Origin: a virus
Strand: one strand, 5' to 3'
Length of the DNA: 61,639 nucleotides
Virus record (IMG/VR): IMGVR_UViG_3300045141_000205
Location: 1 to 61,639 of that record
A program made the translations under genes and the position numbers. Below are positions 34,846 through 60,947 of this stretch, in pieces (positions within the stretch are counted from its first letter, which is position 1; each line of letters starts with the position of its first letter). Under the pieces are notes generated by a model that made no database searches, was not told the DNA's origin, and saw only the letters and a list, made by a program, of their open reading frames with translations.

Positions 34846-37443
34846 TCAACGAGCCATCGCTCCTGGCTGCATCTGCTCGGCCTGCTCGATCTCCCCCGGC
34901 GTCATCAGCGTCGCCTTCTGGCAGTTGGGGCAGATGTCGCCCTCCAGCATCCCGTCCCCGGCGTCGGCAGGAGCAGCGGCGTTGCCCGGCGTCGAGGTCG
35001 GGCTGGCCGCACCGGCCTCGAACCCACAGGCCGGGCAGAACAGGTCGGCCACGGAGTCACCGGGAGTACCGGGCAGGCCACCGCCCTCCTCGTCCTCGGT
35101 CTCCTCCTCCAGGCCGTCGACCTGCTCACCGGGCTCCGCAGGCGACTCGGGCTCGGGGGCGTTGGGTCCCTTGGTGAACGGCTCCCCGCCCTGGTTGATG
35201 TGCTGGGTGGCCGCCTCCGGGTCCTCGGGGCCGCCGACCACATCGCCGTCCTCGTCGACCTCGTCCTCGTCGACCGGCTCGCCGACATCTCCGAGGCCCC
35301 GGACCTCGCCCTCCACGACGCCATCCTCGCCCTCCTCGTCGGTGGGCTCATCGGCCTCCTCGCCCTCGGCACCGGGCGCCACGTCACCGTCCTCGTCCAC
35401 CTCGGACTCATCGACCGGGGGCAGGTTGGCGCCGACGTTGGGGTTCTGGTCGTTGGGATCGCCGGAGGCCGGGTCGGCCCGCAGGTCCAGCAACTTGGCG
35501 GCGTCCAGGTCCGGGTCCCGGAACATCTTGGGCGGGGTGACGAACCCGCACACCTGGCACTGGTCGCCGTCGAAGGCGTCGTTCTCCCCGCACACCGGGC
35601 AGGCGTCCTCGCGCAGCGTGTCCACGTTCACCGGGGCCTTCACCTCTCCGTAGGCCAGCACCTGGAGCCCGGCGATGTAGCGACGGGTCAGGGTCTCCAG
35701 GCTGGCCAGGCCACCGTGCCGGGTGATCCGGGCGTTGCGGACCAGTCCCTCGCCGCCGCAGTTCTTGCAGGGCTCCCGGTGCTCCCAGGGGTTCACGCCC
35801 GGGGGCACCGGCCCTGTGGCACGCACATCGCCTCTGCCCTTGCAGGACGGGCAGGGCACGTTCGTCGCGGGCTTGGTGGTGCGATCCAGCCAGTCGTCGA
35901 ACGACTCGCCCTCGCCGGGCATGTCGTGGTGGCTGAACCCCATCCCCGCGCTGTCGCCCCAGGAGTCTGCCCCAGCCGGACGCCGGTTCTCCTGCTCCAA
36001 CTGGCGGCTGATCTCCTCGTGGGTGGACTGCTGCTCGTGCATCGGGGTCGGCGGCTCGTACGGGTGCTGCTGACCGAAGGGCTCGCCTCGGAAGTACAGG
36101 CCGTTGGCCCCGCTGTAATCGGTCCCGGTGTCGTAGTAGTTCCGGCTCGGACGGGAGCGCGGAACGCCCTGGGGGTGCTCGGGGTTGAAGCCACGGGCCT
36201 GCGGGGGAGCAGCCGTGGTGCCGCTGTGCTCGACGGCGTTGTCGTGGACCTCGCCGGAGTGGTGGTTGATCGTGAAGCCGTCCTCATAGGGGTGCAGCAC
36301 GGTGTCGGTGTGCAGCCCGTACTTGCCTCGGGTGGGCTCGGTCTCCCGACTCCACCCCTCCTGGCCCCAGTGGTGCTCGGGGTAGATCGAGCCACCCGAA
36401 GGGTTGTGGGCGATCACCCGCTCCGGGGCGCCCGCAGCCTTGGACGGGTTCCGCATCAACTTCATGTTGGACGGCAGGAAGGCGTTGATCCGGGACCGGG
36501 TGGTCGAGGAGTCCCAGCCGCCCGTGTCCACCGTGATGTCGCCGTTGTCGCGGAACCCCATGATGTTGGTGTCGTGGTGCCGGACGAAGGTCTGGCCCTG
36601 GTCGTCCTTGTGCATCCAGGTGTTGTTGGCGATCGGCACATGGCCCGAGCGGCCCTTGTAGGTGCGGTACTTCCTCTGTGCCGCATCGGGGTCGATGGGT
36701 CGAGCCGACGCCTTCCAGATGTGGTCCAGCACGTCCAGCATCGCGGTGCGCTGCATGAGCCCTCCTCGCTTCTGCTGCACCAACTTCTGGCGCTGCCTGT
36801 GCCTGGTCTTGCGGCCACCCCCGGCCTGCTCGCATGCAGGGCAGACCCCAGTCTCCCCTGGGCCGAGCCGGGCGCCGCAGTTGCTGCACGATCCCGCCTG
36901 GTTGAGCGACAGGTCCAGCGGCGGCAGGTCGGTGAGCCGACGCATCTCCGCATCGCTGATGGCCCTGCGCCTCATGGAGGCCTCCTTGCGGCCAAGTTGC
37001 AGGTCGTGGCCGCAGTCGTCGCAGGAGTCCTCGGGCATCAGTTTGCCGGTGGTCAGCGGGTAGTAGGGCTCCATCTGGTGCCCAGCCGAACGCCGGTCCT
37101 CCGCGCACGAGGGACACAGGGTGGTGTCCTTGCCCGGCCCGAAGTTGTCCTTGGTCCAGCCGACCACCTCGGGGTGGTCCTTGTAGTGCTCGTACTCGGT
37201 GGGCTCCTCGACCCCGGAGACCGCCGTGTTGAACTCGTGCTCGGGGTGCTCGCAGTTGTCATCGGACCTTGCCCAGTGCCGGGCCGCCTGCTGGGGGTCC
37301 TTGCCCATCTGGTGGGCGCAGGCGTCACAGAAGACCCGGCTCCCGGTGATGAACCCGCTCCTGCCGGACTCGTTGTACTGCCGGAGCCGGTGCCCGTCCT
37401 GGTACTCGTCGCCGGGCTTGGTGCCCTGGGTGCGCTCGCTCAT
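34846..37443 (-). CDS. 865-aa multi-zinc-ribbon head-region protein
   Basis: The start chosen is the ATG sharing its A with the protease stop (TGATG), giving 865 aa (MSERTQGTKPGDEYQDGHRL). Zinc-binding pairs are spread along it: CDAC near 40, CPSC near 110, CDDC near 142, CSNCGARLGPGETGVCPAC near 185-205, CPVC/CQVC near 620, CPAC/CPNC near the end. A DnaJ-like pair, CPSCKGRG then CKNCGGEG, lies near 530-562. A beta-rich segment near 275-330 (QGQTFVRHHDTNIMGFRDNG ... ITVDTGGWDSSTTRSRINAF) resembles a module seen in other phage proteins. Residues about 660-790 are very acidic. I do not recognise the whole protein. It is translationally coupled to the protease. Confidence 0.8.
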   Translation of the reverse strand: MSERTQGTKPGDEYQDGHRLRQYNESGRSGFITGSRVFCDACAHQMGKDPQQAARHWARSDDNCEHPEHEFNTAVSGVEEPTEYEHYKDHPEVVGWTKDNFGPGKDTTLCPSCAEDRRSAGHQMEPYYPLTTGKLMPEDSCDDCGHDLQLGRKEASMRRRAISDAEMRRLTDLPPLDLSLNQAGSCSNCGARLGPGETGVCPACEQAGGGRKTRHRQRQKLVQQKRGGLMQRTAMLDVLDHIWKASARPIDPDAAQRKYRTYKGRSGHVPIANNTWMHKDDQGQTFVRHHDTNIMGFRDNGDITVDTGGWDSSTTRSRINAFLPSNMKLMRNPSKAAGAPERVIAHNPSGGSIYPEHHWGQEGWSRETEPTRGKYGLHTDTVLHPYEDGFTINHHSGEVHDNAVEHSGTTAAPPQARGFNPEHPQGVPRSRPSRNYYDTGTDYSGANGLYFRGEPFGQQHPYEPPTPMHEQQSTHEEISRQLEQENRRPAGADSWGDSAGMGFSHHDMPGEGESFDDWLDRTTKPATNVPCPSCKGRGDVRATGPVPPGVNPWEHREPCKNCGGEGLVRNARITRHGGLASLETLTRRYIAGLQVLAYGEVKAPVNVDTLREDACPVCGENDAFDGDQCQVCGFVTPPKMFRDPDLDAAKLLDLRADPASGDPNDQNPNVGANLPPVDESEVDEDGDVAPGAEGEEADEPTDEEGEDGVVEGEVRGLGDVGEPVDEDEVDEDGDVVGGPEDPEAATQHINQGGEPFTKGPNAPEPESPAEPGEQVDGLEEETEDEEGGGLPGTPGDSVADLFCPACGFEAGAASPTSTPGNAAAPADAGDGMLEGDICPNCQKATLMTPGEIEQAEQMQPGAMAR

Positions 37444-40400
37444 CAGTCCTCCTCGGCGAAGTACCGGACCAGGGTCGAGGTGAACCCGTGCCGCTCGCCG
37501 TACGACGGCTTGTCCAGGGGATGGTTGAAGTCGTCGTAGGCATCGCCGTTGTCCCGCACCCAGCGGTGGAACTGCTGCTCGAACCGGCGCTGGGACCAGC
37601 CGTGGGGGATGCCCGGGGAGGCGTCGCTCATGGTGCCCTTGCTCTGGTCGAAGCCGGAGATGCCGGGAGAGTCCACCGGGGCGTCGCCCTGGTAGATGTG
37701 GATGCGGGAGCCCCCGGTCCACTCGGCCCGGTAACCGGACGGGTGCTCGGCGTAGAACCGCTTGGGGCCAGCAGCCAGCCGCACACCCTCGCGCCGGATG
37801 TAGCCCTTGCCGTCGCACTTCGCGCAGGAGGTGTGCCCGGGCTCGCCGTCGCAATCAGGGCAGACATCCTCATCGGCGCTCTTCAAGAGGTGCCGCATCA
37901 TCTTGTGCGCCTTCTGCTCGGAGGCCATGTCCGAGGGCACCCGGGCCAGGTCGTCGCGGATGTCCTGCTGCTCGGCCATCTGGCCGTACAGGTCGGCATG
38001 GTTCTCGGCGTGCTTGTCGACCGCAGCCTGGGCGTTGTAGACCTGGCTCATCACATGGTCGGGGATGGAGCGGGCGGGCGCTCCCCAGGCGTTGGGGACG
38101 AACCGGTTGTTCTTGGCCTCGTAGTCCCAACCGCCACGGGGACGGCCTCCGGGGTTGCCCGGGTGCGGCGGGCTCATCTGGTCAGCGTGGTAGAGCGTCA
38201 CCGACTGGCTGGGCTTGGCTCCGTACTGCTCGCGGAGGCTGCGATCCGGCATGTTGTCGTGGATGTGCACCTCCCACCGCTTCGTCTTCGGGGCTCGCCA
38301 GAACAGGCTCGGCTCGTCCATCGAGTCACCGATCCAGGTGCCTTCCTTCCGGACGGCGGTGGTCTCGCCACGGCGCCAGACGTGCACCTGCTCACCCACG
38401 TCGTGGTGGCGGATGCCGGGGGCCTTGGAGCCCCGCTGCCGCCAGGCCAGGGTCACCTGGTCGCCCCGGGTCATGGTCTTGTGCACCCGGGTCTTGCCGG
38501 AGATGTCCAGGAAGTCTCCCTCCCCGACCTCCTCGGCAGGGACGGTGTGCCGGACCAGGCCCTTGCCGGAGTTGTCGCCGACTGCGGAGTACTTGGTGGG
38601 CTGGTCGTTGGGGAAGGCGCCGTGCCACTTGTTCACCTCGTCGCCGTCGTAGTCATGACCCCAGCGGGCGTGGGTGAACCCCTGGTTGTGCAGGTCGATC
38701 AGAGCCCGCACCCGGGGCTCGTAGACCTGAGCCATGCCCGCAGGGCTGTAGATGCTCTTGGGATCGGTGTCGCCGTTGCCTTCTGCGGCCCGGGCCGCGT
38801 AGTCGCCGATCGCCTTCTCGATGGGCTGCACGCCGGTCGAGGGGTGCACCGGCTGGAAGCGACCCTTGCCGTCCCAGTAGGTGTCCCGCGACTGGACATG
38901 GGTGTGCCCCTGATCGCGGAGAGCCTGCAACTCCGTACGGGCCTGCTCCCGGTCAGCCTCCGAGTGACCGACCATCTTCTTCGCCCCGTCGTCCCAGTGC
39001 TGGAGCATCAGGGCGATCGGCTCGGTGTTGCTCGCCGTCGCCTGGAGGCTGGAGTACTTGGTCGGCCCCTGGTGCTTCTGGTCCAGCAGCCACCCGGCCT
39101 CGGGCTCGGTCTCGTGGAAGTGCCTGCCGATCTCCCGGCCCAGGTCCTTCTCCTCGGTGGGCTGGAGGTCGTGTTTCATCCAGCCCGGCATCCCGACGCC
39201 CTGCTCGTACATGTGCTGGGGGTGCTCGGTGCAGTCGTAGTTGTTGCAGTCCCAGGCGCCGTGCCCGTCGTAGGGCTGCTTCTTCGGCTTGCCCCAGGCG
39301 TCCAGGCCCAGGGACTCGTTCTTGTCGAAGTGCTCGCGCCAGGTGTGCGGCTCCGGGTACCGGTGGCAGTTGTCGCACGGATCGTCTAGCCAGGAGTCGT
39401 CCTCCTCGGCTGCGGTCTTCCGGACGTTGAGGCTCTGGATCGGGGAGGGGTGGAACGGCCCGGTCTGCTCGGGCATCCCCCCGGCCCGCTCGGGGGCGAA
39501 GTTGGGGTTGAAGCCGTGCAGGTGCTCGATCAGGGCCGTCATCCCCGGCCCGGACTCCGACCAGTCATTCGTGGTCAGCGGGTCGGTCGGCGGATGGTTG
39601 TGCCCGTGCAGCCCAGCCGGGTTGGCGTGGTCACCGTCGTGGAGGTGCAGGTGTAGGTGCCGCACGCTGTCCTGAATCTCGCCGATGTTGGTGGGCTTCT
39701 CGATGCCGAGGTCCCGGCAGTGCCTGGCCACGTCCTTGGTGTCGATCCCGTGGTCGACCCGCATGTGGTCCACTAGGTCCCAGCCCATCTGCTTGCGGGT
39801 GTTGTCGCGCTTCTTCTGCTTCCAGATCTCCTGCCAGTGCTGGGGCGTGCCCCCGTCGTTGGGACCGCCGACCGCCGTCTTCCGGACAGCGGTGTGGAAG
39901 TGGGACTCGTCCAGGAACTGCCCCGGCATCCCCTCGTCGGAGTCGCGGTGGTCGTGCAGGTGCAGGTCCCGTATCTCCTTGTGGGTCAGCGGACGGTCCT
40001 CGTCGGTCGCCGGTCCCAGGGCCGGGTGGTCCTCGTCGTGGGAGTTGCGCCAGAGGTCGCCGTCGTCGAGGTAGTGGGACTCGATCAGGTGCTGCTTGAG
40101 GTCCACCGGGTCCGAGAGGTTCACCACCCGCTTCTCGGCGTGCTGCTGCATCTCTGAGGCCCTCTGAGCGGCATCCCCGATGGCCCGGTAGACATCCATC
40201 GAGCGCTGGTCGAGATGGATGTGGTCGTTGGGCTTCCCGCACTCCGGGCACGGCTCGTCCTCGAAGGCAGCCATCTTCTTGAGGTGGGAGTCCCAGGTCT
40301 TCGCGAAGCCGGGATGCAGGTCGAGGCCCTTCATCTCCTCCGGCGTGTACCACTGGGTACCGCCCTCACCGGTCTCATGAGCGGCGTCCTCGCCACCCGA

Positions 40401-43400
40401 GGAGCCCCACCGGGACGGGGAGTCCATGACCACGGTATGGAACGCCCAGCCGCCATGCTCGTCGGAGTGGGTGTGGACGTGGGTCATCCCGTGCGGGACC
40501 CCACCGAGTTCCTCGTGGGACTCCCGGATGGCACCGTCCTCGGGGGACTCGTCGTGGTGCAGCGCACCCCCGGGGATGCCCCAGGTGTCGCCCTGGTCCA
40601 CCCAGGGCGCCCGGTGCTGGAGCAGGTACCGCCTGGTGCCGTCGTCCCCGGTGTGCCGGATCAGCAGCCCGGCAGCCCCAGCCGAGCCCCAGTGCCGGTG
40701 CCCCTGGTCGCAGGTGGTCCACTCATCAGCGCTGGAGTGCCTCGGGTCGTCGTCGGCTCGGTGGCTCCCGGAGTTGAGGGACTGCTTGAGCGGGGTGACC
40801 GGACCGAACTCGCGGTTGAAGAACTCCTTGCCGCGCTGCTCGTAGAACCCCTTGGTGGGCTGGCCGATCTCGCTGGGCCGGGTGGTGGCGTGCAGGGCGA
40901 TCTCGTTGCCGCAGGTCTTGCACTTGGACTGCTCGCCCTCGTCGGGGAAGGACCGGGCCTCGTGGTTGTTCGGGTAGGTGTGCGGGCAGGCGTCGAGCCG
41001 GTCCAGGTCCCCGCCACCGGCGTACCGCTCCAGTTCGTCCCGCGTCCGCTTCTCGTGGGCGTGCTCGTCGTGGTCCCAGTCCAGGTCGTCCTCACGGAGA
41101 TCGGTGAGCCGGTTGGGGTGGGCATCGGTCCGGTCCGGGTGGAGGTAGTCCCTGGCGAAGGACTGCTCGTGGTTCCTGGGGGCGAACTGGAGCGTGCGCG
41201 GGTGGGAGAACTCCCCGGTGTCGTAGGGGCGGTGGAGCAGCATCGGTGACTTCCCCGTGCTGTAGCCGTGCGGGTCGCCCTCGTAGTCCCACCAGGAGGG
41301 GTCGCGGACCTCCACCCGGAGCGGGTCGTCGGGGTGGGAGTGGTCGTGCGGAGGCGGCAGGGCGTCACCGCGATGATGACCAGCCGGGCTCCTCAGGTCA
41401 CCACCGTGCTCATGCTCGTGAATCCGGTGCACCAGGTTGACCCGCTCGAAGGCACTACTGAGGTCCTTGGCCCTGCCGAGCAGGGAGTCACCCTCCGCAG
41501 CGTTGGCGCCGGGCTGCTTCTGGAGCCGGTCGATGGTGTCTTCGAGTTCGTCGTGGGAGTAGCCGTGGTGCTCGGTCAGGTGCCGACGCAGCATCCGGGT
41601 CCGCTCCCAGTTGTCGTCGGTCTGCTCGGGCACCGAGTAGTTCAGGTCGTCCATCCCAGCGAAGAACTGCATCAGGCGGGAGTACCTGGTCGGCCCCTGC
41701 GACTGCTGGCCCAGGAGCCAGTCGGCGTCCTCGCCCACCAGGCCCTTCATCTGCTCGGCCAGGTCGCCGGGGATCGGGTCGCTGCCGTACAGGGACTTGG
41801 GCGCCCGGTAGTGGGGCTTGCCCCCCTGGTTGCGCTGGAGGATCTCGTACCGCCCGGGGTCGTGAATCTCGTGGTAGGGGTCCCGACGGGTGTAGTCGCC
41901 ACAGGTCGGGCAGTTCTTGATCAGGCCATTGGTGGTCTGGAACAGGTGCGGGTGGTCGCAGGCCTCCCAGCCACAGCGCTCGCACTCGTCGGGGTCGTCG
42001 CCCACATGCGGGTGGTTCATGGGGTGCTCGGCACGATCGTCGCCCGACCACCTGTCCACGGAGTTCTTCTCGACGGCGAAGTGCTGGAGCAGGGAGTACT
42101 TGGTCGGACCGTTCTCGCCGTTCTCACGGTGGTTCTGGTCGAGCAGGAAGCCCAGGGGATGATCGGCCAGGGCATCCCTGACGGCCTTCTCGGCGTCCTG
42201 GTACTCGTCGCTGTACGGGTTCAGGTGAGCAGGGGGCGCCATCTCGTGCTCACCCTTGGTGTGCCAGCCATCCTCGAACCCGGTCTCCTGGCAGTGCGGG
42301 TGGTCGCACTCCTGGTCGGCCTCGTGCTGGGCCACGCACTCCGGGCAGGTCGCCTGGCTCGGGTCGGTGTGCACGCGGTACTGGGGACCTCTGCGGTTGC
42401 AGTACGTCGGGGTCTCGGGGTGCCCGGGGTGCGTCGGCAGATGCACCAGGCTGGGGTCGTCCCGGGGGTCGGCCTCATCGTCGAGCGTCGACTCCACCAC
42501 CCGCATCCGCACCCGCCGACGGTCATCGGCGATGTGGTCCTCGTGGCGCTCCTCGGCGGACTTCCCCTGAGCCCTGGCCTCGTCGTCGCGGCGCAGGATG
42601 TCCTGGGCCGAGCGCAGGTGATCGAAGGCGCCCCGGTGCTCCTCGCACAGGGGGTGCCCACCGCCACCGAGGTGCGTCGCCGGAGTCGCCTTGGGGTTCG
42701 GCGCCAGAATCCACTCCTCGGAAGACCGGTGGGACGGGTACTGGCAGTAATCCGGGCTCCCCTTGTCCATGAGGCCGCGAATGGTGGAGGGGTCCAGGGA
42801 GCCGTAGCCGCGAGCCTCGGAGTCCCACCGGGCCTTCTGCCGGGCCTCGTCCTCCTGGCGCTTCGGGCTGTGCCAGTAGGCCACCCGGTCGGGGTTGTGG
42901 TGGTTGAGGTTGGACCCCCAGCCACACTGGGCGCACGGTCCGTCCGGGTCACCCTCGTGGAGATGCGGCTCGGTGCCGGTCTTCTTCTCCACCGGCCTCG
43001 GCGTGAAGGGGATGACCTCGCCAGCGAAGTGCTGGAGCAGGGAGTACCTGCTCGGGCCGGTCGGGTTGGACCGCAGGAACCTCATCGCCTGCTGGTCCGG
43101 GTCGGCGTCCTCGTAGACCTGGTTCACCTGGTGGATCGTGGAGCCCGGCAGCGGGCTGTGGCAGTACCGGCACAGGCCCAGGGTCTCGGCGCTCTGCCAG
43201 GCCTCCGGGTCGGTCCCGTAGCCGCCCCGGTAGTCGTCCTGGTGCTCGCCGTAGCAGAAGTCCGAGTGGTACTCGTCGCGGCGCGGAGGGTGCGGGAACG
43301 GCGCCGTGGCTGCGGTCTTGACCGCTGCCTTGCCGAGCCCGGAGTGGTCATCCACACCTGTGAAGAAGGCTGTGGGATCAGCGGGCTCCTCGACCAGCAG

Positions 43401-44977: not shown

Positions 44978-45658
44978 TCACAGGCCCTTCTTGACGCACT
45001 CGGGGCCGAGTCCCTGGTGGACGCTGGCCGGGACCGTCAGGTCGCGGTGGCAGCGGTAGCACTGGACCACCGGGAGCGCGGCCTGCGGGTCGGCCATGAA
45101 CGTGGTGGCGTCGGCCACCAGGAGCGCGTTGTCCTGGTGCCGCTTCCAGACGTAGAGCCGACCACCCTTGACGTGCCCGAACCCCGAGTAGTCGCGGTCG
45201 TTGGCCGGGCCGGTGAGGTGCTCGATGATCTGCACACCGGGCATGAAGTCGTCGTCGAGGCCCTGGGTGCGCAGGCGGAAGGTGCGGTGCCCGTCGGCCT
45301 TCTCCAGGGTGTACACGCCGTCGTAGAGGGTCTCGCCGTTGACGACGTTGACCTGGTGCTCGGGCTGGGCCGGTGCCGCCGTGGGGAGCGAGACGTCGAC
45401 CTCGGGGCACGGCGGGATGTGGGAGACCTCCCACTTGCTGCCGACCTTCTCCAGGCGACCCTGCTCGGCCTCGACCCAGCCGGTGCAGTTGACGCACTTG
45501 GCGCCGTACTTGTTCGTGCGGATGGTGGGCTGGTTCGAGGCGGGCCGGTCGCCGGGGGCCTCGACCGGGAGGTCGGCGTGGCGGCGGAAGTTGGGGATCA
45601 CGGGCTTGCTGCTGGTCGGCTGGGCCGATCCGATGGTGCCGCGACGGAAGTCGTTCAT
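44978..45658 (-). CDS. 226-aa protein with C-terminal DUF6011-like zinc motif
   Basis: A 226-aa protein starts at an ATG after AAGGAG. A zinc element near residue 55 (GAKCVNCTGWVEAE) is followed by a beta-rich domain (LYDGVYTLEKADGHRTFRLR ... GFGHVKGGRLYVWKRH). The end is CYRCHRDLTVPASVHQGLGP then ECVKK, matching the C-x2-C ... GLGPEC pattern of DUF6011-type elements that occur in phage and actinobacterial proteins. It is likely a single-copy regulatory or DNA-related protein; no enzyme activity is evident. It lies after a 108-base AT-richer intergenic region, without the 36-bp element. Confidence 0.78.
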   Translation of the reverse strand: MNDFRRGTIGSAQPTSSKPVIPNFRRHADLPVEAPGDRPASNQPTIRTNKYGAKCVNCTGWVEAEQGRLEKVGSKWEVSHIPPCPEVDVSLPTAAPAQPEHQVNVVNGETLYDGVYTLEKADGHRTFRLRTQGLDDDFMPGVQIIEHLTGPANDRDYSGFGHVKGGRLYVWKRHQDNALLVADATTFMADPQAALPVVQCYRCHRDLTVPASVHQGLGPECVKKGL

Positions 45659-45766: not shown

Positions 45767-46222
45767 CTAGGGGTCTGGGGTGACGCCCTTGCTCACGAAG
45801 GACCTCAGCACCATCGACAGGTCCTTGGTGGTCAGGGTGTCCCCGGCAGCCAGGCTGTCCAGAGCATCTTGCAGCGCTGAGTCATCGGTGGGCGGGGTGA
45901 CCACGACCTCCGTGGGTGGCGTGGTCGCTGGCATGCTCGGGTCCCTCGGCTCGGTGTCGTCCACGATCGCCTGGATCGCCTCGACCTCCGCCTCGGTGAA
46001 CTCGTCGGCGACATGGACGAACAACTCCATCGGGTTGTCCACGCTGGCCGGTGCGCTCGGGTCCGGCAGGACCCCATCCAGCAGCACGTCGCGCCCCAGG
46101 GCCTCCTCGATGTCTGTCTGCAACTGCCAGAACAGCAGCGGCTTGGTGAGGGTGAACGACTCGGTGGCGCCGTCGGTCAGGTCGGAGAAGGGCTCCGGGG
46201 GCTCAGGGTTCTGCTGGGTCAT
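45767..46222 (-). CDS. Acidic protein of unknown function after the SWIM protein
   Basis: The start chosen is the ATG overlapping the upstream TGA (GCATGACC), where AAGAAGG has better spacing than for an earlier ATG; this gives 151 aa. It opens MTQQNPEPPEPFSDLTDGAT and contains a helical segment (FWQLQTDIEEALGRDVLLDG), a disordered Pro/Thr stretch near 95-110 and a helical end. No motif is recognised. It is the last gene of the unit that starts at copy 3 of the element. Confidence 0.75.
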   Translation of the reverse strand: MTQQNPEPPEPFSDLTDGATESFTLTKPLLFWQLQTDIEEALGRDVLLDGVLPDPSAPASVDNPMELFVHVADEFTEAEVEAIQAIVDDTEPRDPSMPATTPPTEVVVTPPTDDSALQDALDSLAAGDTLTTKDLSMVLRSFVSKGVTPDP

Positions 46223-50026: not shown

Positions 50027-50062
50027 CACCCCTTCGCGGCGCTCAGGTGCCCGGCGACAGCA
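50027..50062 (-). repeat. 36-bp unit-start element, copy 3 (overlaps end of portal gene)
   Basis: The coding strand reads TGCTGTC, 20 bases, GAAGGGGTG. TGCTGTC lies in the last codons of the portal gene and the TGA of CTGAG is the portal stop. An AGGAGGATC ribosome binding site follows downstream. Confidence 0.85.
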
Positions 50063-52232: not shown

Positions 52233-52557
52233 GCTGGACCTCCTTCCGGTAGGTCCAGACCTTCATCCCCAGGTCCCGGATGCGGTTCCCGAACTCCCGG
52301 CGCACCTCCCACTCCAGGTCGCCCTCGGTGGCCACCATCAGTCGCACGAAGATGCGCAGGTTGGCCGCGCACACCCCGCACAGCCAGACCACGTCGCTCA
52401 GCGCCTCGGTGTTGTCCACCAGGTCCCGCAGGTCGACCTTGGTGCACACGAGCGGGGTCGGGGAGTGGAACTTGGAGCCCTCACAGGGCACGCCGAGGAC
52501 ACCACCTGCTCGGTCGGTGACACCGTGCTCCTCGATGGCCTCCAGGATCAGGCTCAT
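52225..52557 (-). CDS. Small Cys-containing protein upstream of the portal
   Basis: A 110-aa protein. It contains CEGSKFHSPTPLVCTKVDL, with one Cys pair, and WLCGVCAANLRIF, with a C-x2-C pair; together these could bind one zinc. The C-terminal half is helical and charged. Start and stop overlap both neighbours. It may be a small head protein; the family is not recognised. Confidence 0.75.
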   Translation of the reverse strand: MSLILEAIEEHGVTDRAGGVLGVPCEGSKFHSPTPLVCTKVDLRDLVDNTEALSDVVWLCGVCAANLRIFVRLMVATEGDLEWEVRREFGNRIRDLGMKVWTYRKEVQHG

Positions 52558-52922
52558 GTCGACTCGGGCTCATCATTCTTCTTGGCAGTGGTCTTCTTGG
52601 CGGCGGTCTTCTTGGTGGTGGCCTTCTCGGGCTCGGCCTTCTCGTCCGTGTCCTTCTCGGCCTTCTCGTCTGTGGCCTTGGCAGCGGTCTTCTTGGGCTC
52701 GGCCTTCTTCTCGGCCTCGGCCTTCTTGGCCTCATCCTCCTCGAAGTGCTTCTTGGCCTCATCCACGTCCAGGGTCAGGAAGGCCCGGTACACCATGGAG
52801 TTGACCTCACGGCGTTGCCGGTCGCTGTCGTAGGCCACCGTGATCACGTCGCCCCGGTGCCGCTGCTCGCCCCCGGCGTCGATGAAGTCCGCCAGCACGG
52901 CTACCTCTCTGGTCGTGCTCAT
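52554..52922 (-). CDS. Small protein with histone H1-like Lys/Ala-rich tail
   Basis: A 122-aa protein overlaps its neighbours by ATGA. The first 55 residues are a small beta-rich domain (VAVLADFIDAGGEQRHRGDV). The remaining 65 residues are Lys, Ala, Thr and Glu-rich with KKTAAK repeats (AEPKKTAAKATDEK and TTKKTAAKKTTAKK). The basic tail resembles bacterial histone H1-like proteins and could bind DNA or anionic capsid interior. It also repeats the KTA motif seen in neighbours. Confidence 0.78.
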   Translation of the reverse strand: MSTTREVAVLADFIDAGGEQRHRGDVITVAYDSDRQRREVNSMVYRAFLTLDVDEAKKHFEEDEAKKAEAEKKAEPKKTAAKATDEKAEKDTDEKAEPEKATTKKTAAKKTTAKKNDEPEST

Positions 52923-53581
52923 GACCTGCTCGCCTTCACTCGGGTGAGCACCCTCGGGCGCTCACGGGGAGATGCCGCCATCAGCGCGATGTGACGCACG
53001 TACTCGTCCTCGCTCAGGAAGTCCCCGCGCACCGTCCGGTAGGAGTTCTTGGCCCACGGCGGCGCGTTGTCGTCCTCGTCCTCCTGCTCCTCGGCAGAGT
53101 CGTCGTCGCCGTTCTCCGGCTCCTCGTCCCCGCCACCGAACTGTGGCGGTACGTCTCCGTTCTCGTCCACCTGGCCTGGGTCCACCGGGGCACCGGCTGC
53201 GGCGTTCGGGTCCATGCCCGCCCCCGAGGGGTCGACGCCGACCTGGCCTGGCATCCCGGGCACCTGCACCGGCTGGCCGTCGATGGTCTGCGGGAACGAG
53301 GGGAACTGGGGCTGCACCTGGACGGTGAAGTTGACGTGGCAGAACTCGCACTCGATGGTCCGGTCGGACCGGGCGATCACCTGCCCGGACCCGCAGAAGG
53401 GGCAGTGGTAGACAGTCTCGCCGTCACCGGAGTCGTGAGCCTGCTTCCTCATGGCTGTCGTATCCACGGTCTCTCCTCGCTCACGCACACAGGAGGCGCA
53501 GAGCAGGTCGCCGCCGACTCGCTGCCTGGGGGTGCCGGGATCGACCTTGTACCCGCATCTCTCGCACAGCCTCAACGCCAT
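52919..53581 (-). CDS. 220-aa protein with two zinc ribbons and acidic tail
   Basis: The start chosen is the ATG five bases after GGTGGAGG, giving 220 aa (MALRLCERCGYKVDPGTPRQ); an upstream GTG overlaps that site. The first zinc ribbon is CERC ... CASC (residues about 6-31), the second CPFCGSG ... CEFC (about 60-80). The middle is Pro/Gly-rich, followed by a very acidic stretch (EEPENGDDDSAEEQEDEDD). The end is helical and basic. It heads the portal unit after copy 2 of the element. Function unknown; an adaptor or DNA/RNA-binding head protein is plausible. Confidence 0.77.
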   Translation of the reverse strand: MALRLCERCGYKVDPGTPRQRVGGDLLCASCVRERGETVDTTAMRKQAHDSGDGETVYHCPFCGSGQVIARSDRTIECEFCHVNFTVQVQPQFPSFPQTIDGQPVQVPGMPGQVGVDPSGAGMDPNAAAGAPVDPGQVDENGDVPPQFGGGDEEPENGDDDSAEEQEDEDDNAPPWAKNSYRTVRGDFLSEDEYVRHIALMAASPRERPRVLTRVKASRS

Positions 53582-53590
53582 CGCTTCCTC

Positions 53591-53626
53591 CACCCCTTCG
53601 GCGGGGTCCGGCGCCCTGGGACAGCA
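53591..53626 (-). repeat. 36-bp unit-start element, copy 2 (before portal unit)
   Basis: The coding strand reads TGCTGTC, 20 bases, GAAGGGGTG. It is followed at once by GGAGG and the ATG at 53581, so element and ribosome binding site are continuous. Confidence 0.85.
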
Positions 53627-54100: not shown

Positions 54101-55345
54101 TCAGCGGCCCCTCTGCTGGAACAGAGTGTTCTTGTCCTCGACCGGGGCGTTGGCCAGTTCGTGCTGCGGGTCCCCGGACCGCTGGTACCACTCCGGCTTG
54201 GGGGCCTTCGGGCTGTACACCGGGGGCTGGGCGGCCTCTGGGGTCCGATCTGCGGGCCGGGCGGGCCGGACCGGCGCCAGGGGCTCACCGGTGCCCTCCG
54301 GACGCACTGGGGGCACCACAGCGAGGTACCTGGAGGCCTTGCGGGCCAGCCTGGCCACCACCGAGCGCGACAGGCTCGGGTTGGCCCTGCGGATCAGGGC
54401 GGTGGCCTGGGCCAGGTTGTTGCCACCCGTGGGGACGGCACCACCAGCAGGAGCACCGGCACCGCCCATGCCGCCCATGCCGCTGGTGTCCGGGTAGCCA
54501 GCGGTCGGGTCGCCTCCGGTGGCACCCTCGTTGGCGCCGAAGCCGGTGCTGTCGGGCAGGTTGGCGCCGTTGATGTCGGGCGGGAAGTCCATCGGCGCCC
54601 CGGGAGCCCCGCCCATCGGGGCACCGGCGCCCGGCATCTGCCGGGGCTTGGTGGTCACCTGGTTGGGGTTCAGGCCCATCGGCCCCTGCTGGATCGGAGC
54701 CGACAGCGGGGTGCCCGCTGCGGGGTCGTTCATCTGCGGTGCCGGGGTGTCACCGGGTCCCGCGCCGGGCAGGTTCGGGGTGTTCATGTCGGGGGGCGTC
54801 TCACCCGGTGTGCCCTGTCCTCCGGGGAGCATGGGAGTGCCCTGGGCGGTCCGGCGCCTGCCCAGCAGTTGGCGGTAGTCGGAGTCGTGCCGACCCACCG
54901 GCTCCCCGCCTTGCAGGTCCCGCTCCGCGTGCAGTTGCCTGGCCCAGTCGTCGGTGTCGATGTCGTCGGCTGACCAGCGGTGGTCCCGCAACTCCTGGTG
55001 CAGCGGGTGGTCCGACGGCAGGGACCGGATGTACGACCCGAGCAGGTGCGAGGTCTCGGTGGGGTGCCGGGAGTTGTTCACGATCGCGTGGATGTCGTGG
55101 TAGGAGCCGCTGTCGTTCTCCAGGTGCATCTGGGCGGCCTCGGTGGCGTACTCGGTGGCGTGCTCCCGGCCCTCGGCCTCGCACGGCCTGTGCGGGGCTC
55201 CACCCACGGTGTAGGGCCTGCCCTCGTTCATGCCAATGGTGGCGTCGCTGCCGCAGTCGTTGCAGTAGGCCATCCAGTGGTCGGGATGGTCGTCAGGGTG
55301 GTGCTGCTCCCAGGGTCCGAGGTCGTGGCCGTTCTCCCGGGCCAT
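54101..55345 (-). CDS. 414-aa protein with Cys/His-rich head and Pro/Gly-rich linker
   Basis: The ATG at 55345 is the first available start; AGAAGGA lies 13 bases upstream, further than usual. The N-terminal 60 residues are His/Cys-rich (GPWEQHHPDDHPDHWMAYCN with DCGSD). A helical region and a GRRRTAQGT motif near 165 follow. Residues about 175-310 are Pro/Gly/Asn-rich, and residues 310-345 form a helix (LAQATALIRRANPSLSRSVV). It belongs to the Cys-rich head set and overlaps the next gene by a single base pair of stop and start. Confidence 0.77.
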   Translation of the reverse strand: MARENGHDLGPWEQHHPDDHPDHWMAYCNDCGSDATIGMNEGRPYTVGGAPHRPCEAEGREHATEYATEAAQMHLENDSGSYHDIHAIVNNSRHPTETSHLLGSYIRSLPSDHPLHQELRDHRWSADDIDTDDWARQLHAERDLQGGEPVGRHDSDYRQLLGRRRTAQGTPMLPGGQGTPGETPPDMNTPNLPGAGPGDTPAPQMNDPAAGTPLSAPIQQGPMGLNPNQVTTKPRQMPGAGAPMGGAPGAPMDFPPDINGANLPDSTGFGANEGATGGDPTAGYPDTSGMGGMGGAGAPAGGAVPTGGNNLAQATALIRRANPSLSRSVVARLARKASRYLAVVPPVRPEGTGEPLAPVRPARPADRTPEAAQPPVYSPKAPKPEWYQRSGDPQHELANAPVEDKNTLFQQRGR

Positions 55346-55375
55346 TCGTTCGGCCTCGTCCTTCTGCCGCTGTGC

Positions 55376-55392
55376 GCCCGCCTGTCGCGGGC
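55376..55392 (-). terminator. Small 6-bp hairpin after the 541-aa gene
   Basis: GCCCGC and GCGGGC pair around a 5-base loop immediately after the stop at 55393. It is short for a terminator and lacks a T-run; it may only affect mRNA stability. Confidence 0.35.
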
Positions 55393-57018
55393 TCAGCCGA
55401 AAGGGCGACTCCCCTCCCTCACCTGTGGGGACGTGGTGTGACCACCCGGGTTCTCCGGCTGCGCCGAGCCGCCGCCCTGCTGCATCGCCGCATCCATGGC
55501 CGAGTTGTTCGGGTCCATGAACTGCTCGGTGGTCTCGTGGTGGCTGGGCGTCGGTGGAGCCGAGGTGTCGTAGAGCAGGGCCAACGGGTCCTGGCCGTCC
55601 TCCAGCGCCTGCCGGATCAGGGCCAGCCTCTGGTCGAAGGACGCCAGCAGCAGCAGCGGCGCCAGTTCGGCCAGCCCCGCAGCGGCCCCCTCACCTGCGG
55701 CAGCAGCACCGGCAGCCTCGCCAGCACCGGCAGCAGCGCCACCCCCGCCCATGCCCGGGATCTTCGGCATGCCCGGGAGGCTCGGCAGGTGCATGCTGCC
55801 ACCACCACCGGGCTTCGCGCCTCCCTGGTTCTGGGACTGCTGCGGCGAGTCGCTGGTGCCGTCACCGGTCATGTCGTCGACCGGCACGGCGGTCTTCCGG
55901 GCCGACTCCTTGCGGGTGCCAGAGCCTCCGCAGTGGACGCAGTTCAGGTTCCGGTGGTTGAGGTTCTTGCCGGTGCCGTCGCAGTGGTGGCAGGCGTCCG
56001 ACTCGGACTTGCTGGCCTCGTGGTCCAGGTCCCCGAAGCCGCGCTGGATGTCGCGGCAGCCCGGGATGTAGTCGCCCGGCTCGGGCTTGTCCATGCCGCA
56101 GTGCTTGCAGTAGCCCAGCGGGCTGGTGAACTCGTGGCCCTTCTGGTCCCGGGCCTCGGTGGGGATGTCCTGGGAGCACTCCTGGCACCGGCCATACCCG
56201 TCGTCCTCGTGCTGGTGGTTCTCGGGGTACTCGTGCGGGTCCCTGGCCGACTCCTTGCCGCCTGCGTCCTTGTTGCCGTGCCGGTAGCCGTGGCCGTACA
56301 GGATGGCCTTGTCCCGGCCCCCGTAGCCCTTGTAGTCGGTGCCGGAGCGCCCGTGGTCGTAGCCCTCGTTGTAGTAGTAGATCGGGTTGCTGCTGGTGCC
56401 GTTCAGTTGCAGGTCGTCCACCGAGTCCGGGTCGTAGGAGGGTCCCCGCTTCCCGGCCTCCTTGGCCGAGGTCTTGCCCTTGTAGGTCGTGTAGACCTCC
56501 TCGGCCTTCTCCCCGCAGTTGGGGCAGTCCATGTGCTCGCTGGTGCTGGTGGAGGTCTTGCCGCAGTTGACGCAGTCGTGCTCCCACTCGTCGCGTCCGG
56601 CTACCTTCCGAGAGGTGATCTTGGAGGCCGACCGGCGCACGTCGGGCTGGTAGGACTCGCACCCGCACGGGCACAGCCCGCCCTTGCGGTGGGAGGGGTT
56701 GGCATGGCCACAGTTCTTGCAGGAGAGCGCCCCGGCAGCCTCATGCTCCGAGGCTGACTCTTTTGGGTGGAGGGCCTCGAACGCGGTCCTGAACTGCGCG
56801 GTGACATCCTCAAACGACACACCGTGCCGGGCCGCGATCGAGGCCAACCGGTCCTCGCTCAGCGCCAGCCGGTGCCCGAACTCGGCATCGGACTGGGCCA
56901 GGGCCAGGAACGCCCAGCAGTCCTGGGCCTCCACCTGGGCCGAGGTCACTGCCCGCAGCGTGGCCTCTGCCTCGGCATCGTCCCCGGCCCCGTCGAAGAG
57001 GCTCGCGAAGGTCTCCAT
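55393..57018 (-). CDS. 541-aa multi-zinc-ribbon protein with DnaJ-like pair
   Basis: The ATG follows GGAGAG with a long spacer. An N-terminal helical domain (about 1-90, CWAFLALAQSDAEFGHRLAL) precedes four zinc pairs: CKNC/CPCGC (about 100-120), CVNC/CPNC (about 148-170), CQEC/CKHC (about 278-315) and a DnaJ-type pair, CHHCDGTG then CVHCGGSG (about 343-370). A RKTA motif follows near 378. The C-terminal part is Gly/Ala-rich with a short hydrophobic helix (LAELAPLLLLASFDQRLALI). The DnaJ-like element occurs here without a J domain. Function unknown. Confidence 0.78.
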   Translation of the reverse strand: METFASLFDGAGDDAEAEATLRAVTSAQVEAQDCWAFLALAQSDAEFGHRLALSEDRLASIAARHGVSFEDVTAQFRTAFEALHPKESASEHEAAGALSCKNCGHANPSHRKGGLCPCGCESYQPDVRRSASKITSRKVAGRDEWEHDCVNCGKTSTSTSEHMDCPNCGEKAEEVYTTYKGKTSAKEAGKRGPSYDPDSVDDLQLNGTSSNPIYYYNEGYDHGRSGTDYKGYGGRDKAILYGHGYRHGNKDAGGKESARDPHEYPENHQHEDDGYGRCQECSQDIPTEARDQKGHEFTSPLGYCKHCGMDKPEPGDYIPGCRDIQRGFGDLDHEASKSESDACHHCDGTGKNLNHRNLNCVHCGGSGTRKESARKTAVPVDDMTGDGTSDSPQQSQNQGGAKPGGGGSMHLPSLPGMPKIPGMGGGGAAAGAGEAAGAAAAGEGAAAGLAELAPLLLLASFDQRLALIRQALEDGQDPLALLYDTSAPPTPSHHETTEQFMDPNNSAMDAAMQQGGGSAQPENPGGHTTSPQVREGSRPFG

Positions 57019-57027
57019 GACTGGTTC

Positions 57028-59295
57028 TCACTCTCCCTGGTGGGACTGGAGCAGGTTGGCCTGCACCGTGCGGCGGAAGGCCCGGGTCTGCGGGCTCAGG
57101 TGCTGGTAGGCCGCCGCGTCCACCGGCGCCCCCGGCTGGGTGTCGATGGCGGTGGGCTGGCCGTGGGTGACCGAGAGGTTCGGCACCACCGGAGCCCCGT
57201 ACGGCTCGGCCCCGTTGTAGGGGCTCGGGCCACCAGCGGCTGCCGGGTCGGCACCACCTGCCAGCGGACCCGGACGACCCGGGCCGTTGATCGGCGTGGA
57301 GCCGGTCGGGCTGGGGCTGGTCGACGGTGAGATCGAGTCCAGGTCGGTCATGGTGGCGGCGGTGGCCTGGAGGCCCTGCTCGGGACGCAGGTAGCAGCCC
57401 TCGACCTGGAAGCCCTGGAGGTCCTTGGCGGCCCGCTTGGTGAACTCGCGGTGCATCCGCAGCCGCTTGATGTAGTGCCGGTCCTGGTACTTGGTGGCGG
57501 CGGCCTCGTGGGCCTTCACCCAGTCGGCCTGGTGGTCGGGATTGTCGGACATCCCGGCGTACAGCCCGGCCTCGAACGGCACCGAGCCCTTCTTCACCAG
57601 CGGCTTCTTCGGAGTCCACTTGGCGGCGTACCGGTAGCCCTTGGCGAACTGCGGGTCCGAGGTCTCCATCGGGGAGGTGAAGGACGCCGAGACCTGGATC
57701 GACTGGACGCTGGCCGTGGCCTGGAGCGACCCGGCGTGGGTCTGGTAGGAGCCGATCCCACCCGCGCCCGGGGGCAGCATCCCAGGCTGGGCGCCACCGG
57801 TCGGGTCGGCCTGAGCGGCGTCCCCGTAGCCCTGCGCGTGACCCCGCACGAAGTCGGGTGCGCTGCTGGAGGCGTCGTTGTAGGTGGGCGCCTCGTCCGG
57901 CCAGTCGGAGGCCCCCTCGGCCACCCCCTCCTGGTAGGTGCCGGTCGGCGGCTCGGGGGTGGTGTACGGGCTGTTGGCGACCTCGGGCTGCGGCATCTCG
58001 TGCGGCTGCGACCACTGGTCGGCCCGCTTCTGGAGGGTGGCGGTGAACGCCCGGACCTCCTTGCGCTCGATGTCGGTCAGGTCCTCGTACGGCCTGTCCA
58101 TCAGACCCGCGACGTAGGCGGCCCGACGCTGGAACGCAGCCAGGGATGCCGAGTGGCCACCCCCGGACTCCTGCTTCTTCTGGTCCTCGGACTCCTGGCC
58201 CCCGTCGAGCAGCCACGGGTAGGCCACCTCGGTGGGCAGCGGCTCGGGCCTGGGGTTCTCCTGGGAGTCGACGACCTGCTGCACCTGGTCGAGCCCGGAG
58301 GCGGCCTCCTTGTCGAGAGGCTCGCCCAGTTTGTGACCACAGCGAGCACACTTCTCACCAGCCGGAGGCGGTCCACCGCAGTTGGGGCACTTCCCGGCCT
58401 CCTTGACCAATGCCTCCTTGTCGAACTGCGCGATGAAGTCGTCGAGGTTGCCGACGTGGCTGATCGCCAGGCTGGGCTCGAAGAGAGCAGCGGTCTTGCC
58501 GTGGCTGCATGTGCACGAGCCGCCCGAGCAGTCGGCGCAGGAGCCGTCAGCGCAGGGCACGCAGGAGCCGCCGCCACTGGACTCACCCTGGGTCGAGCCG
58601 GGGCTGGCCTCGACCGGAGCCGGTCCTGCGAACTCCTGGGACTCGTCGTGGTGACTCGGGTCCGGGGGCGCCACCTGCTGGCCGGAGTTGCCCTCGATCT
58701 CCTGGATCAGCGGCGCCCGCTCGGAGGTCTCGGTGCCAGAGACGCCCTGGTTGATCGGGTGCACCTCCGGCTGGAAGGTGTCGAAGACATCCTGCGGCAG
58801 CGGGGTGGTCTTGGGGTTCTCGAAGGAGTCCACCTGCTGCTGCACCTGGTCCAGGCCCGAGGCGGCCTGGGTGCGCAGGAAGCCCACGTAGTCCATGAAC
58901 TGCCGCTCGGCGGCCTCGGACTGCTCGCCGTACCGGCCTGCGGTGTGCCGGGCCATCCCCCTAGCCTGCTCGGTGAACTCCTCGGGGTCGGACTTCACCT
59001 CGTCGCTGGTCCGCCCGAACCACATCGCCGCCTCGGCGCTGATCTCGTTGGCGTAGTCGTCGTAGGAGGCCTGCACCTCCCCCAGCCAGTCGGTCTCGGC
59101 GGTGGAGCGCTCGTGCACCGCCACCGGGCTCAGCGTCTCCCGGATGATGGTGTCGGTGAGGTCGATCGAGTCGGCCTGCGCCTGCATGGCAATCCGGTCC
59201 CGGTCGTAGGCGTCGAGTTGACTGACCAGCGCCGCCTGCTCGGCAAGCGTGGCTGCCTTCTGGATGCTCTGGACGATCTCGTCTCGCTGGCTCAC
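57028..59295 (-). CDS. 755-aa Cys-rich head-region protein with duplicated module
   Basis: The GTG start overlaps the upstream stop. An N-terminal helical region (about 1-145) is followed by AASGLDQVQQQVDSFENP near 148 and a second copy, AASGLDQVQQVVDSQENP, near 335. Between them lie a short cluster CVPCADGSCADCSGGSC and a zinc ribbon CPNCGGPPP ... CARC (about 305-325). The middle (about 530-680) contains a basic helical segment (KYQDRHYIKRLRMHREFTKR). The C-terminus is Pro/Gly-rich. Duplicated segments around metal-binding clusters suggest an internal repeat structure. No family is recognised. Confidence 0.77.
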   Translation of the reverse strand: MSQRDEIVQSIQKAATLAEQAALVSQLDAYDRDRIAMQAQADSIDLTDTIIRETLSPVAVHERSTAETDWLGEVQASYDDYANEISAEAAMWFGRTSDEVKSDPEEFTEQARGMARHTAGRYGEQSEAAERQFMDYVGFLRTQAASGLDQVQQQVDSFENPKTTPLPQDVFDTFQPEVHPINQGVSGTETSERAPLIQEIEGNSGQQVAPPDPSHHDESQEFAGPAPVEASPGSTQGESSGGGSCVPCADGSCADCSGGSCTCSHGKTAALFEPSLAISHVGNLDDFIAQFDKEALVKEAGKCPNCGGPPPAGEKCARCGHKLGEPLDKEAASGLDQVQQVVDSQENPRPEPLPTEVAYPWLLDGGQESEDQKKQESGGGHSASLAAFQRRAAYVAGLMDRPYEDLTDIERKEVRAFTATLQKRADQWSQPHEMPQPEVANSPYTTPEPPTGTYQEGVAEGASDWPDEAPTYNDASSSAPDFVRGHAQGYGDAAQADPTGGAQPGMLPPGAGGIGSYQTHAGSLQATASVQSIQVSASFTSPMETSDPQFAKGYRYAAKWTPKKPLVKKGSVPFEAGLYAGMSDNPDHQADWVKAHEAAATKYQDRHYIKRLRMHREFTKRAAKDLQGFQVEGCYLRPEQGLQATAATMTDLDSISPSTSPSPTGSTPINGPGRPGPLAGGADPAAAGGPSPYNGAEPYGAPVVPNLSVTHGQPTAIDTQPGAPVDAAAYQHLSPQTRAFRRTVQANLLQSHQGE

Positions 59296-60947
59296 AGCGG
59301 TGTCTCCTCTTCGTTTCCAGCCACCATGGCTGCATGCCGGGCAATCACGCCCCGGGGGTTGTTGACGCTGGACTGTCTCGGAAGGTTGAGTTGCCGGGGA
59401 GAGTCAGAGAACGCCCGACCTCCCGCGCCCCCGAAGGCCTCGGTGTAGCCGCACTTGAGACACCGGTACTTGTCGCCCTGCCGGGCCAGTGTCCCGGTGT
59501 TCCCGCAGGACGGACAGGAGTTGCTGGGGGCCTGGTTGGACCCGGCGTCACCGGGGTGCAGCGGCATCTGGGCCATGTTGCCGCCCGGGGTGCCCAGGTC
59601 CGGGATGGCCTGCTGCTGGGAGTTCTGCGGCATCACCGTGAACTTGGTGTCGTACGGGACCACCGTGGTGCCCGCGTCGGTGTCGACGTAGTAGTGCTGC
59701 GGGCTGTACTCGTGGCGCCGGATGTTGTTGACGGTGACGGTCTGCCCGGTCGGGGTGTTGATCTGGTCGCCCTTGTTGATCAGGATGCGCCCGTCCGCCG
59801 AGGCCACGGGTGTCTCGACCCGGGTGGCCTCGTGCAGGCTGCTGGTCCGGGTGTAGTCGGTCCTGACGGTCGGCCCCGGGTGCTGGTGCGGAGCCTTGAG
59901 CAGGCTGTAGGAGCCGCAGGCCGAGCAGGCCGGGCCGGTGTTGGCCAGGACCGGTGAGCCGACACTCCCGCAGGCCTGGCACTCCCGGTCCCCGGCGTGC
60001 TCCACACCCGGCGACTGCGCGGTCTTGGCGCCCTCGACCTTGTGCTTGATGGAGCCGCAGTAGGCCTCCGGGTCGTCCTTGTCGGAGTTGGCCTTCACAC
60101 ACGAGTCGAAGTCGGTGTAGCCCGCGAACGGGGCGCCCTTGTGCATCGCTTCCATGGCAGTCCTCGTGAACGGGTTGAGTGCACGGATACGGGCGTCGAA
60201 GGCGTCGGCCCGGGCGTCCCGCTCGGCCTTGGTGCTGGCGTCCCGGGCCACGACCTTGCCCTCGGGCGTCCAGGTGTAGACCTTGCAGTGGCCGGGGGTC
60301 TCGACGTGACCGAAGGTGGTGGCGCCCATGCCGCCCTCGTCCCGTCCAGGTGACCCGCACTCGGGGCACGGGGGAGGAGAGATCGCCGAGGCCAGCCGGT
60401 GCAGGGAGGCGATCCGGCCCGACTCCCGCTCACCGGGCTTGGCGATGTACTCATCCGGGCAGCACGACCAGCAGTTGCTGTAGTCGGCCCGGTGGTCCCG
60501 TGCGTGCGCTACCCCTCGCCGGGCATCGGGGTGGTGGGCCTCGTTGTGGCACTGCTGCACGAAGTTGATGTAGACCTCCTGGGACTTCCGGTCCCCGGTG
60601 GTCTTGCCGCCGTGCTCGCACCGTTGCACCAGGTACGGGTCGAAGTCGGCGTCGTCGGTGACATCCCGGGGCTGGAACTCGGTCCTCGGTCGGTCGATGG
60701 TCTTCACGCGCACCCGCTGCCGCTCGGGCTCGGGCTGCCGCTGGGGCTCGGGGTCCCAGGGGCTGGCGGCGGTCTTGCGCTGCTGCTGAGCCATCTGGCG
60801 CCGGACTTTCTTCTGATCCGCACTGGGCTGACGGCGCTGGATCGGCTTGGTGGCCTGGCGCATGGGCTGCTGGCTGGGCGCGTCGTCGGAGCGCTCGGCG
60901 CTCCACTTCACACCCTGCTTCACACCCTCGGCGCTCAGGTCGTCCAT
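59292..60947 (-). CDS. 551-aa Cys/His-rich protein, first gene of the head unit
   Basis: The start chosen is the ATG after AAGGAG seven bases upstream, giving 551 aa (MDDLSAEGVKQGVKWSAERS); a longer GTG start lies inside the element. A basic N-terminus with RKTAASPWDP near 59 leads to a His/Cys-rich domain (CWSCCPDEY near 153; CPEC near 185). Near 283-305 a FAGYTDFDSCVKANSDKDDP then EAYCGS segment matches a short motif common in actinobacteriophage capsid-region proteins. Zinc ribbons CQAC/CSAC (about 325-345) and CPSC/CLKC (about 485-505) follow. Function unknown. Confidence 0.78.
   Translation of the reverse strand: MDDLSAEGVKQGVKWSAERSDDAPSQQPMRQATKPIQRRQPSADQKKVRRQMAQQQRKTAASPWDPEPQRQPEPERQRVRVKTIDRPRTEFQPRDVTDDADFDPYLVQRCEHGGKTTGDRKSQEVYINFVQQCHNEAHHPDARRGVAHARDHRADYSNCWSCCPDEYIAKPGERESGRIASLHRLASAISPPPCPECGSPGRDEGGMGATTFGHVETPGHCKVYTWTPEGKVVARDASTKAERDARADAFDARIRALNPFTRTAMEAMHKGAPFAGYTDFDSCVKANSDKDDPEAYCGSIKHKVEGAKTAQSPGVEHAGDRECQACGSVGSPVLANTGPACSACGSYSLLKAPHQHPGPTVRTDYTRTSSLHEATRVETPVASADGRILINKGDQINTPTGQTVTVNNIRRHEYSPQHYYVDTDAGTTVVPYDTKFTVMPQNSQQQAIPDLGTPGGNMAQMPLHPGDAGSNQAPSNSCPSCGNTGTLARQGDKYRCLKCGYTEAFGGAGGRAFSDSPRQLNLPRQSSVNNPRGVIARHAAMVAGNEEETPL

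Follow-up and report, generated by a model that had tools for sequence, protein, structure and literature searches.

The closest described systems are the polyvalent proteins, multi-domain products of virion genes in phages with portal and terminase, in which ART, GNAT and ParB-like modules are shuffled (PMC5512222). The criterion for such a protein is at least two disparate domains in one polypeptide; the assemblin-like peptidase, where present, is reported always to lie at the C terminus, and a zincin-like metallopeptidase hub domain is found in about 36% of the proteins (PMC5512222), so that the zincin domain is not a required feature. Among NAD-ADPr enzymes packaged in heads, a Nudix domain fused to a capsid-processing serine peptidase has already been described as likely head cargo (PMC9503650). 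In addition, SPN3US/phiKZ and T4 contain many internal head proteins, some of them protease-processed, that are predicted or known to be ejected, and the SPN3US prohead protease acts on head proteins including ejection proteins (PMC10052503). In the literature, we found nothing direct on zinc ribbons in internal virion proteins or on the virion proteomics of E3/Bxz1 phages.

We analysed an IMG/VR virus contig of 61.6 kb (61,639 nucleotides; this whole stretch is called the window), with a GC content of 64-72% per 2-kb segment, on which no tRNA was found. Its head module lies on the minus strand, to which all window coordinates refer, and runs from right to left. Proteins of 557, 755, 541, 414, 155, 224, 122 and 110 aa precede the portal (729 aa), which is followed by proteins of 1261, 154, 226, 2187, 865, 278 and 174 aa and then by the capsid protein. 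The portal (50043-52232; PHROG_2833, E 8e-156) anchors the module and is 52-62% identical to those of IMG/VR relatives, while the major capsid protein (MCP; 31651-32640) reaches 71-91%. Upstream of the capsid gene lie a 174-aa homologue of the minor capsid protein (32663-33187), homologous to Finch gp18, and a 278-aa protein without Cys (33405-34241) that is scaffold-like by position. In Myrna, the gene at the matching place before the capsid gene encodes gp98, the minor capsid protein (PMC7150772). Collagen-like Gly-X-Y proteins are encoded downstream of the window's capsid gene (16112-17098 and 30541-31155). A 2243-aa protein (17159-23890), in which short GGVRVAPGAVTLASTSTLTL-type repeats are numerous, is a putative tail-fibre or adhesion protein.

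At about 40% identity, the best named relatives of the portal belong to the Rhodococcus phages Finch and E3, the Gordonia phage Stormageddon and mycobacteriophages of the Bxz1/Myrna type (cluster C). These phages share homologous portal, protease domain, minor capsid protein and MCP in the same order, and the head module is syntenic with that of the Bxz1/Myrna/E3 type. The three named phages examined have the same gene order with large proteins in matching places, but far fewer Cys pairs and none of the window's accessory modules. E3 has the same head-module layout, and its GenBank record notes the large pre-portal protein gp70 as structural. Myrna gp97 (L003), recorded as a tape measure protein, holds a head protease domain, and its gene immediately precedes those of the minor and major capsid proteins.

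A preliminary description had reported eight proteins of the head module as a family of large Cys/His-rich proteins. All eight open reading frames are present on the minus strand, with the products given as 551 and 220 aa, their lengths from the ATG, measuring 557 and 224 aa in full. Compared with composition-preserving shuffles of each protein, C-x2-C pairs were far above chance in seven of the eight (p<=0.001 each): 6 versus 0.54 in the 557-aa protein, 4 versus 0.14 in the 755-aa, 7 versus 0.63 in the 541-aa, 4 versus 0.26 in the 224-aa, 8 versus 0.48 in the 1261-aa, 11 versus 0.68 in the 2187-aa and 11 versus 0.64 in the 865-aa protein. The exception is the 414-aa protein (54101-55345), which is His-rich (18 His) and has only 3 Cys with a single C-x2-C (versus 0.01, p 0.015). 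C-x2-C is absent from the portal, the capsid protein, the scaffold-like protein and the minor capsid protein, and the 16 downstream genes, with 7618 aa together, contain just 1. The ribbon spacing CxxC-x4..40-CxxC, a putative metal-binding arrangement, occurred 21 times in the whole set (versus <0.1 expected). Among zinc-type Pfam models, DUF6011 alone exceeded its cut-off in the window set, at the C terminus of the 226-aa protein (44978-45658; PF19474, E 2.9e-10). This protein and a further small one (52225-52557) also belong to the set, beyond the eight.

The head modules of 14 relatives were compared with that of the window: 11 from IMG/VR, two from Streptomyces assemblies (the 156,949-bp contig of sp. 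MH60 and the 152,548-bp contig of sp. A0642) and one complete circular 'plasmid' (pRLB1-9.1 of Streptomyces sp. RLB1-9, 154,158 bp). Since pRLB1-9.1 encodes an MCP, a baseplate, ParA, a helicase and a DNA polymerase, it looks like a phage-plasmid; we found no direct literature on it as a phage. The three Streptomyces relatives (L070, L071 and L074; 153-157-kb contigs or circular plasmid) apparently form a phage-plasmid group, and the presence of phage relatives in Streptomyces assemblies suggests Streptomyces or near relatives as hosts.

Counting residues as shared when common to at least three of the 14 relatives, we found 100% shared in the MCP, 99% in both the scaffold-like and minor capsid proteins, 95% in the portal and within 95-100% in the 155-aa protein, versus 11% in the 2187-aa, 12% in the 865-aa, 13% in the 541-aa, 30% in the 557-aa and 40% in the 1261-aa protein and 0% in the 414-aa protein, for which no relative was detected in these head modules. 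The proteins fall into different orthologous slots that retain short anchor segments, and unrelated modules replace the stretches between the anchors. Among the 55 C-x2-C pairs of the whole module, 18 lie within segments common to at least three relatives, and the remainder, roughly two thirds, fall outside such segments. The 18 are an upper bound on conserved sites because 4 of them belong to slot B, which is free of Cys in several relatives. In well-covered genomes, Cys density in the slots ranges from 7 per 1000 aa (Streptomyces elements) to 21 (the window, the highest), and matching slots of Streptomyces relatives can have just 0-1 Cys. Most of the zinc-like modules are lineage-specific inserts, and 'one modular cargo system' is a more fitting description of the set than 'family of zinc proteins'.

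The modules themselves are partly readable. Pfam matches in the relatives' slots comprise ART-PolyVal (E 4.5e-8) and Arr-ms (1.6e-5), both above cut-off, as well as GNAT, NUDIX (2.6e-15) and DUF7178 (1e-28 to 1e-35), and a phrog_2579 segment, annotated in PHROGs as 'ParB C-terminal domain', was present in two relatives. The same modules recur in different places: one type of ADP-ribosyltransferase-like module was found in slots I, F and A, and a GNAT-like module in slot I and also in the protease protein. The polyprotein of relative G011 unites protease, NUDIX, GNAT, DUF7178, the phrog_2579 segment and ribbons. In the window, the readable modules are NUDIX, DUF6011, weaker zinc-ribbon and DnaJ-type segments and a new His repeat. 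As separate observations, relative G001 has five tandem genes downstream of slot I (L037:414-986, L036:17576-19692) whose products start M[SA]NLWYKV/MSNLWYKT and comprise 190-241 aa with 10-18 His each, and several relatives have long fibre-like genes starting MPKHLT between portal and slot I (L039:5191-10917 on the minus strand, L045:1418-4702, L051:2230-6777), absent in the window.

Anchors and inserts are distributed differently in each slot. The 557-aa slot A protein (59292-60965, 6 CxxC) shares aa 273-311 and 374-502, and its aa 272-314 are 84% identical to a segment inside the protease polyprotein of relative G008. Slot B (57028-59295, 755 aa, 4 CxxC) is alignable over its length and contains a duplicated 'ASGLDQVQQ' segment; its Streptomyces relatives lack Cys. 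In slot C (55393-57018, 541 aa, 7 CxxC), aa 21-92 alone are common to at least three relatives, and a DnaJ-type zinc segment (aa 343-374) scored below the Pfam cut-off. The zinc ribbon HCPFCGSGQ..ECEFCH of slot F (52919-53593, 224 aa, 4 CxxC) is present in all relatives of the lineage with slot F recovered. Slot I (46219-50004, 1261 aa, 8 CxxC) is anchored at aa 1-124, 611-884 and 1151-1260, and all 8 CxxC lie in its unshared segments. Its conserved core (47353-48174), homologous in Myrna and Finch, carries a SWIM-like CxC-x(n)-CxH that is invariant in these two phages as well. The 865-aa protein (34846-37443, 11 CxxC) has a conserved VDTLR..CPVC..CQVC..DPDL element (aa 593-641, 35521-35667), of which the Myrna, Finch and E3 versions are without the cysteines, and a C-terminal zinc-ribbon segment (aa 796-853, 34885-35058).

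The 2187-aa polyprotein (37443-44006, 11 CxxC) consists of head protease, zinc segments, NUDIX, His repeats and linkers. The protease had been thought to lie next to the Cys/His-rich proteins; instead, it is the N-terminal domain of this one (aa 1-225, 43332-44006; phrog_2774, E 1.7e-61; phrog_18299, E 1.3e-21). H81 and S139 were invariant in our alignments, and so was a CxxC..CxH site (C149, C152, C163, H165), kept also in Myrna, Finch and E3. The phage-record matches listed covered 5-10% of the polyprotein, in the protease part only. NUDIX (aa 1123-1227, 40326-40640; PF00293, E 1.5e-10, above cut-off) carries the Nudix box GALHHDESPEDGAIRESHEELGG. Most relatives encode the protease together with segments that match the 865-aa protein in a single open reading frame, which in the window is split at a one-base TGATG overlap. 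The C-terminal segments of the 865-aa protein lie inside the protease protein in G003, G005, G007, G008, G011, G013 and the three Streptomyces elements, and in G008 protease, 865-aa and 278-aa scaffold-like segments are one open reading frame. RefSeq names the 1158-aa protein of pRLB1-9.1 (L074:29589-33065, NZ_CP041653.1) 'ParB/RepB/Spo0J family partition protein'. Since its N terminus is a phage head protease (phrog_18299, E 2.6e-23), the name is likely a misannotation; the ParB-like part is apparently one module.

Two copies of the His repeat follow NUDIX in the polyprotein (aa 1297-1374, 39885-40118, and aa 1403-1478, 39573-39800). The repeat, HL-x3-H ... H-x3-H ... H-x-H over about 50-78 aa, has four His invariant in 27 aligned copies. 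One relative protein carries as many as 14 copies in tandem, and the repeat is also found in stand-alone proteins of 57-96 aa. Pfam gave no match in the relative proteins richest in the repeat, and a 1508-aa carrier matched none of 50,697 phage records by tblastn. AlphaFold2 modelled the repeat, including the copy at aa 1403-1478, as helical (three helices, pLDDT 74, moderate confidence), and the model matched no PDB fold. The model of the protease domain (8 sequences) was too poor to confirm the fold (pLDDT 50, no meaningful fold match), and neither the His-repeat profile nor that of the protease matched PDB sequences.

Besides Cys pairs, an unbiased count of gapped triplets made K-T-A, R-K-x-A, R-K-T and T-A-S stand out, and the resulting logo reads [AS][SA]R[KR]TA[AS]-L. 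Using 351 other proteins of the same phages as controls, we observed [RK][RK]TA 47 times versus 3.8 expected in slot proteins (12x) and 8 versus 6.6 in controls (1.2x); the corresponding numbers for [RK]TA[AS] were 71 versus 7.6 and 16 versus 10.5. [RK]TA is also enriched in Finch, where gp12 contains nine (0.4 expected). Just after the protease domain, [RK]TA is present in only 5 of 15 proteins, versus 7.7% of random windows. The sequence GP[TS][KR]YS, in some places continued by LLQHFA, is a second motif; it was found five times in window proteins and elsewhere in only two relatives. It appears as GPSRYS in the 2187-aa protein (43041-43058, with others at 42093-42110, 41679-41696 and 39051-39068) and as the variant QPTKYS at 38586-38603. 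The motifs did not significantly avoid annotated domains (5/35 inside versus 20% expected). Judged from sequence, [KR][KR]TA[AS] and GP[TS][KR]YS are candidate protease sites or targeting signals. Most MCP N termini carry a tail of about 12-17 residues ending [RV][TIVF]AK.SDDY-like (RTAK in two relatives). This tail resembles the cargo motif and is possibly a candidate for cutting too.

How does this locus compare with the described systems? As with polyvalent proteins (PMC5512222), the genes of the set lie among virion genes, on both sides of the portal gene: immediately before it and between it and the MCP gene. The 2187-aa protein unites protease, NUDIX, zinc segments and His repeats in one polypeptide. 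Of the polyvalent signature modules, the window has NUDIX only, while the same slots in relatives carry ART-PolyVal, Arr-ms, GNAT and NUDIX. Unlike polyvalent proteins, the locus has several adjacent slots, the window is dominated by zinc-ribbon and His-repeat modules, and the head protease is N-terminal; the phrase 'zinc ribbon' is absent from the main text of PMC5512222. The zincin motif HEXXH was not enriched over all relatives (18 versus 15.6 expected), with one plausible site, in G010_47. The Nudix-peptidase fusion is shared with the head-packaged NAD-ADPr enzymes, and the passages of PMC9503650 consulted describe neither the linker motifs nor the His repeats nor the zinc modules. To the internal head proteins of SPN3US/phiKZ and T4 there is a likeness in kind, with no homology shown to window proteins; SPN3US gp245 has its own, different cleavage motif, and its substrates are encoded by separate genes rather than being protease-fused multi-module proteins. 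The features that set this locus apart are the number of slots, the zinc/His dominance, the N-terminal protease, the linker motifs and how fast modules are exchanged.

We propose, with a probability of roughly two in three, that the eight proteins are polyvalent head cargo: they would be packaged, probably cleaved by the protease linked to them, and delivered by injection. The conserved anchors of each slot would hold the protein in the prohead, and the modules in the stretches between them could be exchanged: in the window these are zinc ribbons, His repeats and NUDIX, in relatives ADP-ribosyltransferase, GNAT, ParB-like and DUF7178 modules. Slot proteins would be assembled inside the prohead together with the protease, the N-terminal domain of the largest one, and cut at [KR][KR]TA[AS] and probably GP[TS][KR]YS; the pieces would be ejected with the DNA and affect the host at an early stage of infection. 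The sequences show the domain content, the conserved slots with their changing modules, the enrichment of the motifs and the fusion to the protease; from these we infer packaging, the site of cleavage, injection, the binding of metal and the targets. The earlier idea of internal virion proteins that are packaged along with the DNA or leave the head with it agrees well with the synteny, the polyvalent-type modules and the protease fusion, and is still a conjecture. Several points count against the cargo reading. NUDIX is the only clear enzyme besides the protease in the window's own set, the model of the protease was poor, few proteins have [RK]TA just after the protease domain, and the motifs do not significantly avoid annotated domains and may be targeting signals rather than cleavage sites. 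Some metal-like sites are universal, which favours structure or assembly over cargo.

Alternatively, the proteins might build a metal-stabilised core inside the prohead, with the variable inserts as tolerated filler. This core would determine head size or keep the portal in place, and most of it would be lost or digested during maturation. The fusion to the protease, the position of the 865-aa element beside the scaffold-like gene, the joint open reading frame in G008 and the universal zinc-like sites in protease, slot I core and slot F all agree with such a role. Yet the inserts include recognisable enzymes (ART, GNAT and a NUDIX with intact Nudix box) and change far faster than the capsid, and we consider this explanation unlikely. 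The few conserved sites, in protease, slot I, slot F and the 865-aa protein, are candidates for an assembly or structural role, while the others behave like cargo. The preliminary description's metal-dependent assembly factors may be right for the minority of zinc-like sites that are conserved, namely the protease CxxC..CxH, the SWIM-like CxC..CxH and the 224-aa ribbon.

Zinc ribbon and SWIM-like motifs often bind nucleic acid, and many ribbons together with a SWIM-like site could point to DNA- or RNA-binding proteins that travel in the head to shield or compact the genome as it enters (anti-restriction or anti-nuclease), without enzymatic cargo. This is improbable: acidic or Pro/Gly-rich linkers and the presence of NUDIX and ART modules speak against it, and most zinc ribbons are not conserved among relatives. 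Spurious long reading frames in GC-rich DNA, a thought prompted by long frames on both strands, are refuted by the anchors conserved in 14 relatives, and coding scores and the strong non-randomness of Cys pairs on the minus strand likewise speak against them.

Returning to the cargo reading, a further-reaching form of it is conceivable, and we hold it only tentatively: the motifs may amount to a cargo code, in which any module placed between them in a head slot would be packaged, freed by the protease and injected. Each virion might then deliver dozens of small metal-binding or enzymatic effectors, and the His repeat could be a new metal-binding domain.

If the cargo reading is right, a phage lineage with ~155-kb plasmids or contigs in cultured Streptomyces would offer a tractable system for injected proteins and their addressing. 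With the linker motifs as a testable rule, the limits of cargo could be predicted in 'hypothetical' head proteins that cannot otherwise be read, among them those of some 200 Bxz1-like actinophages with known sequences. Module turnover would then suggest an arms race fought as the genome enters the host.
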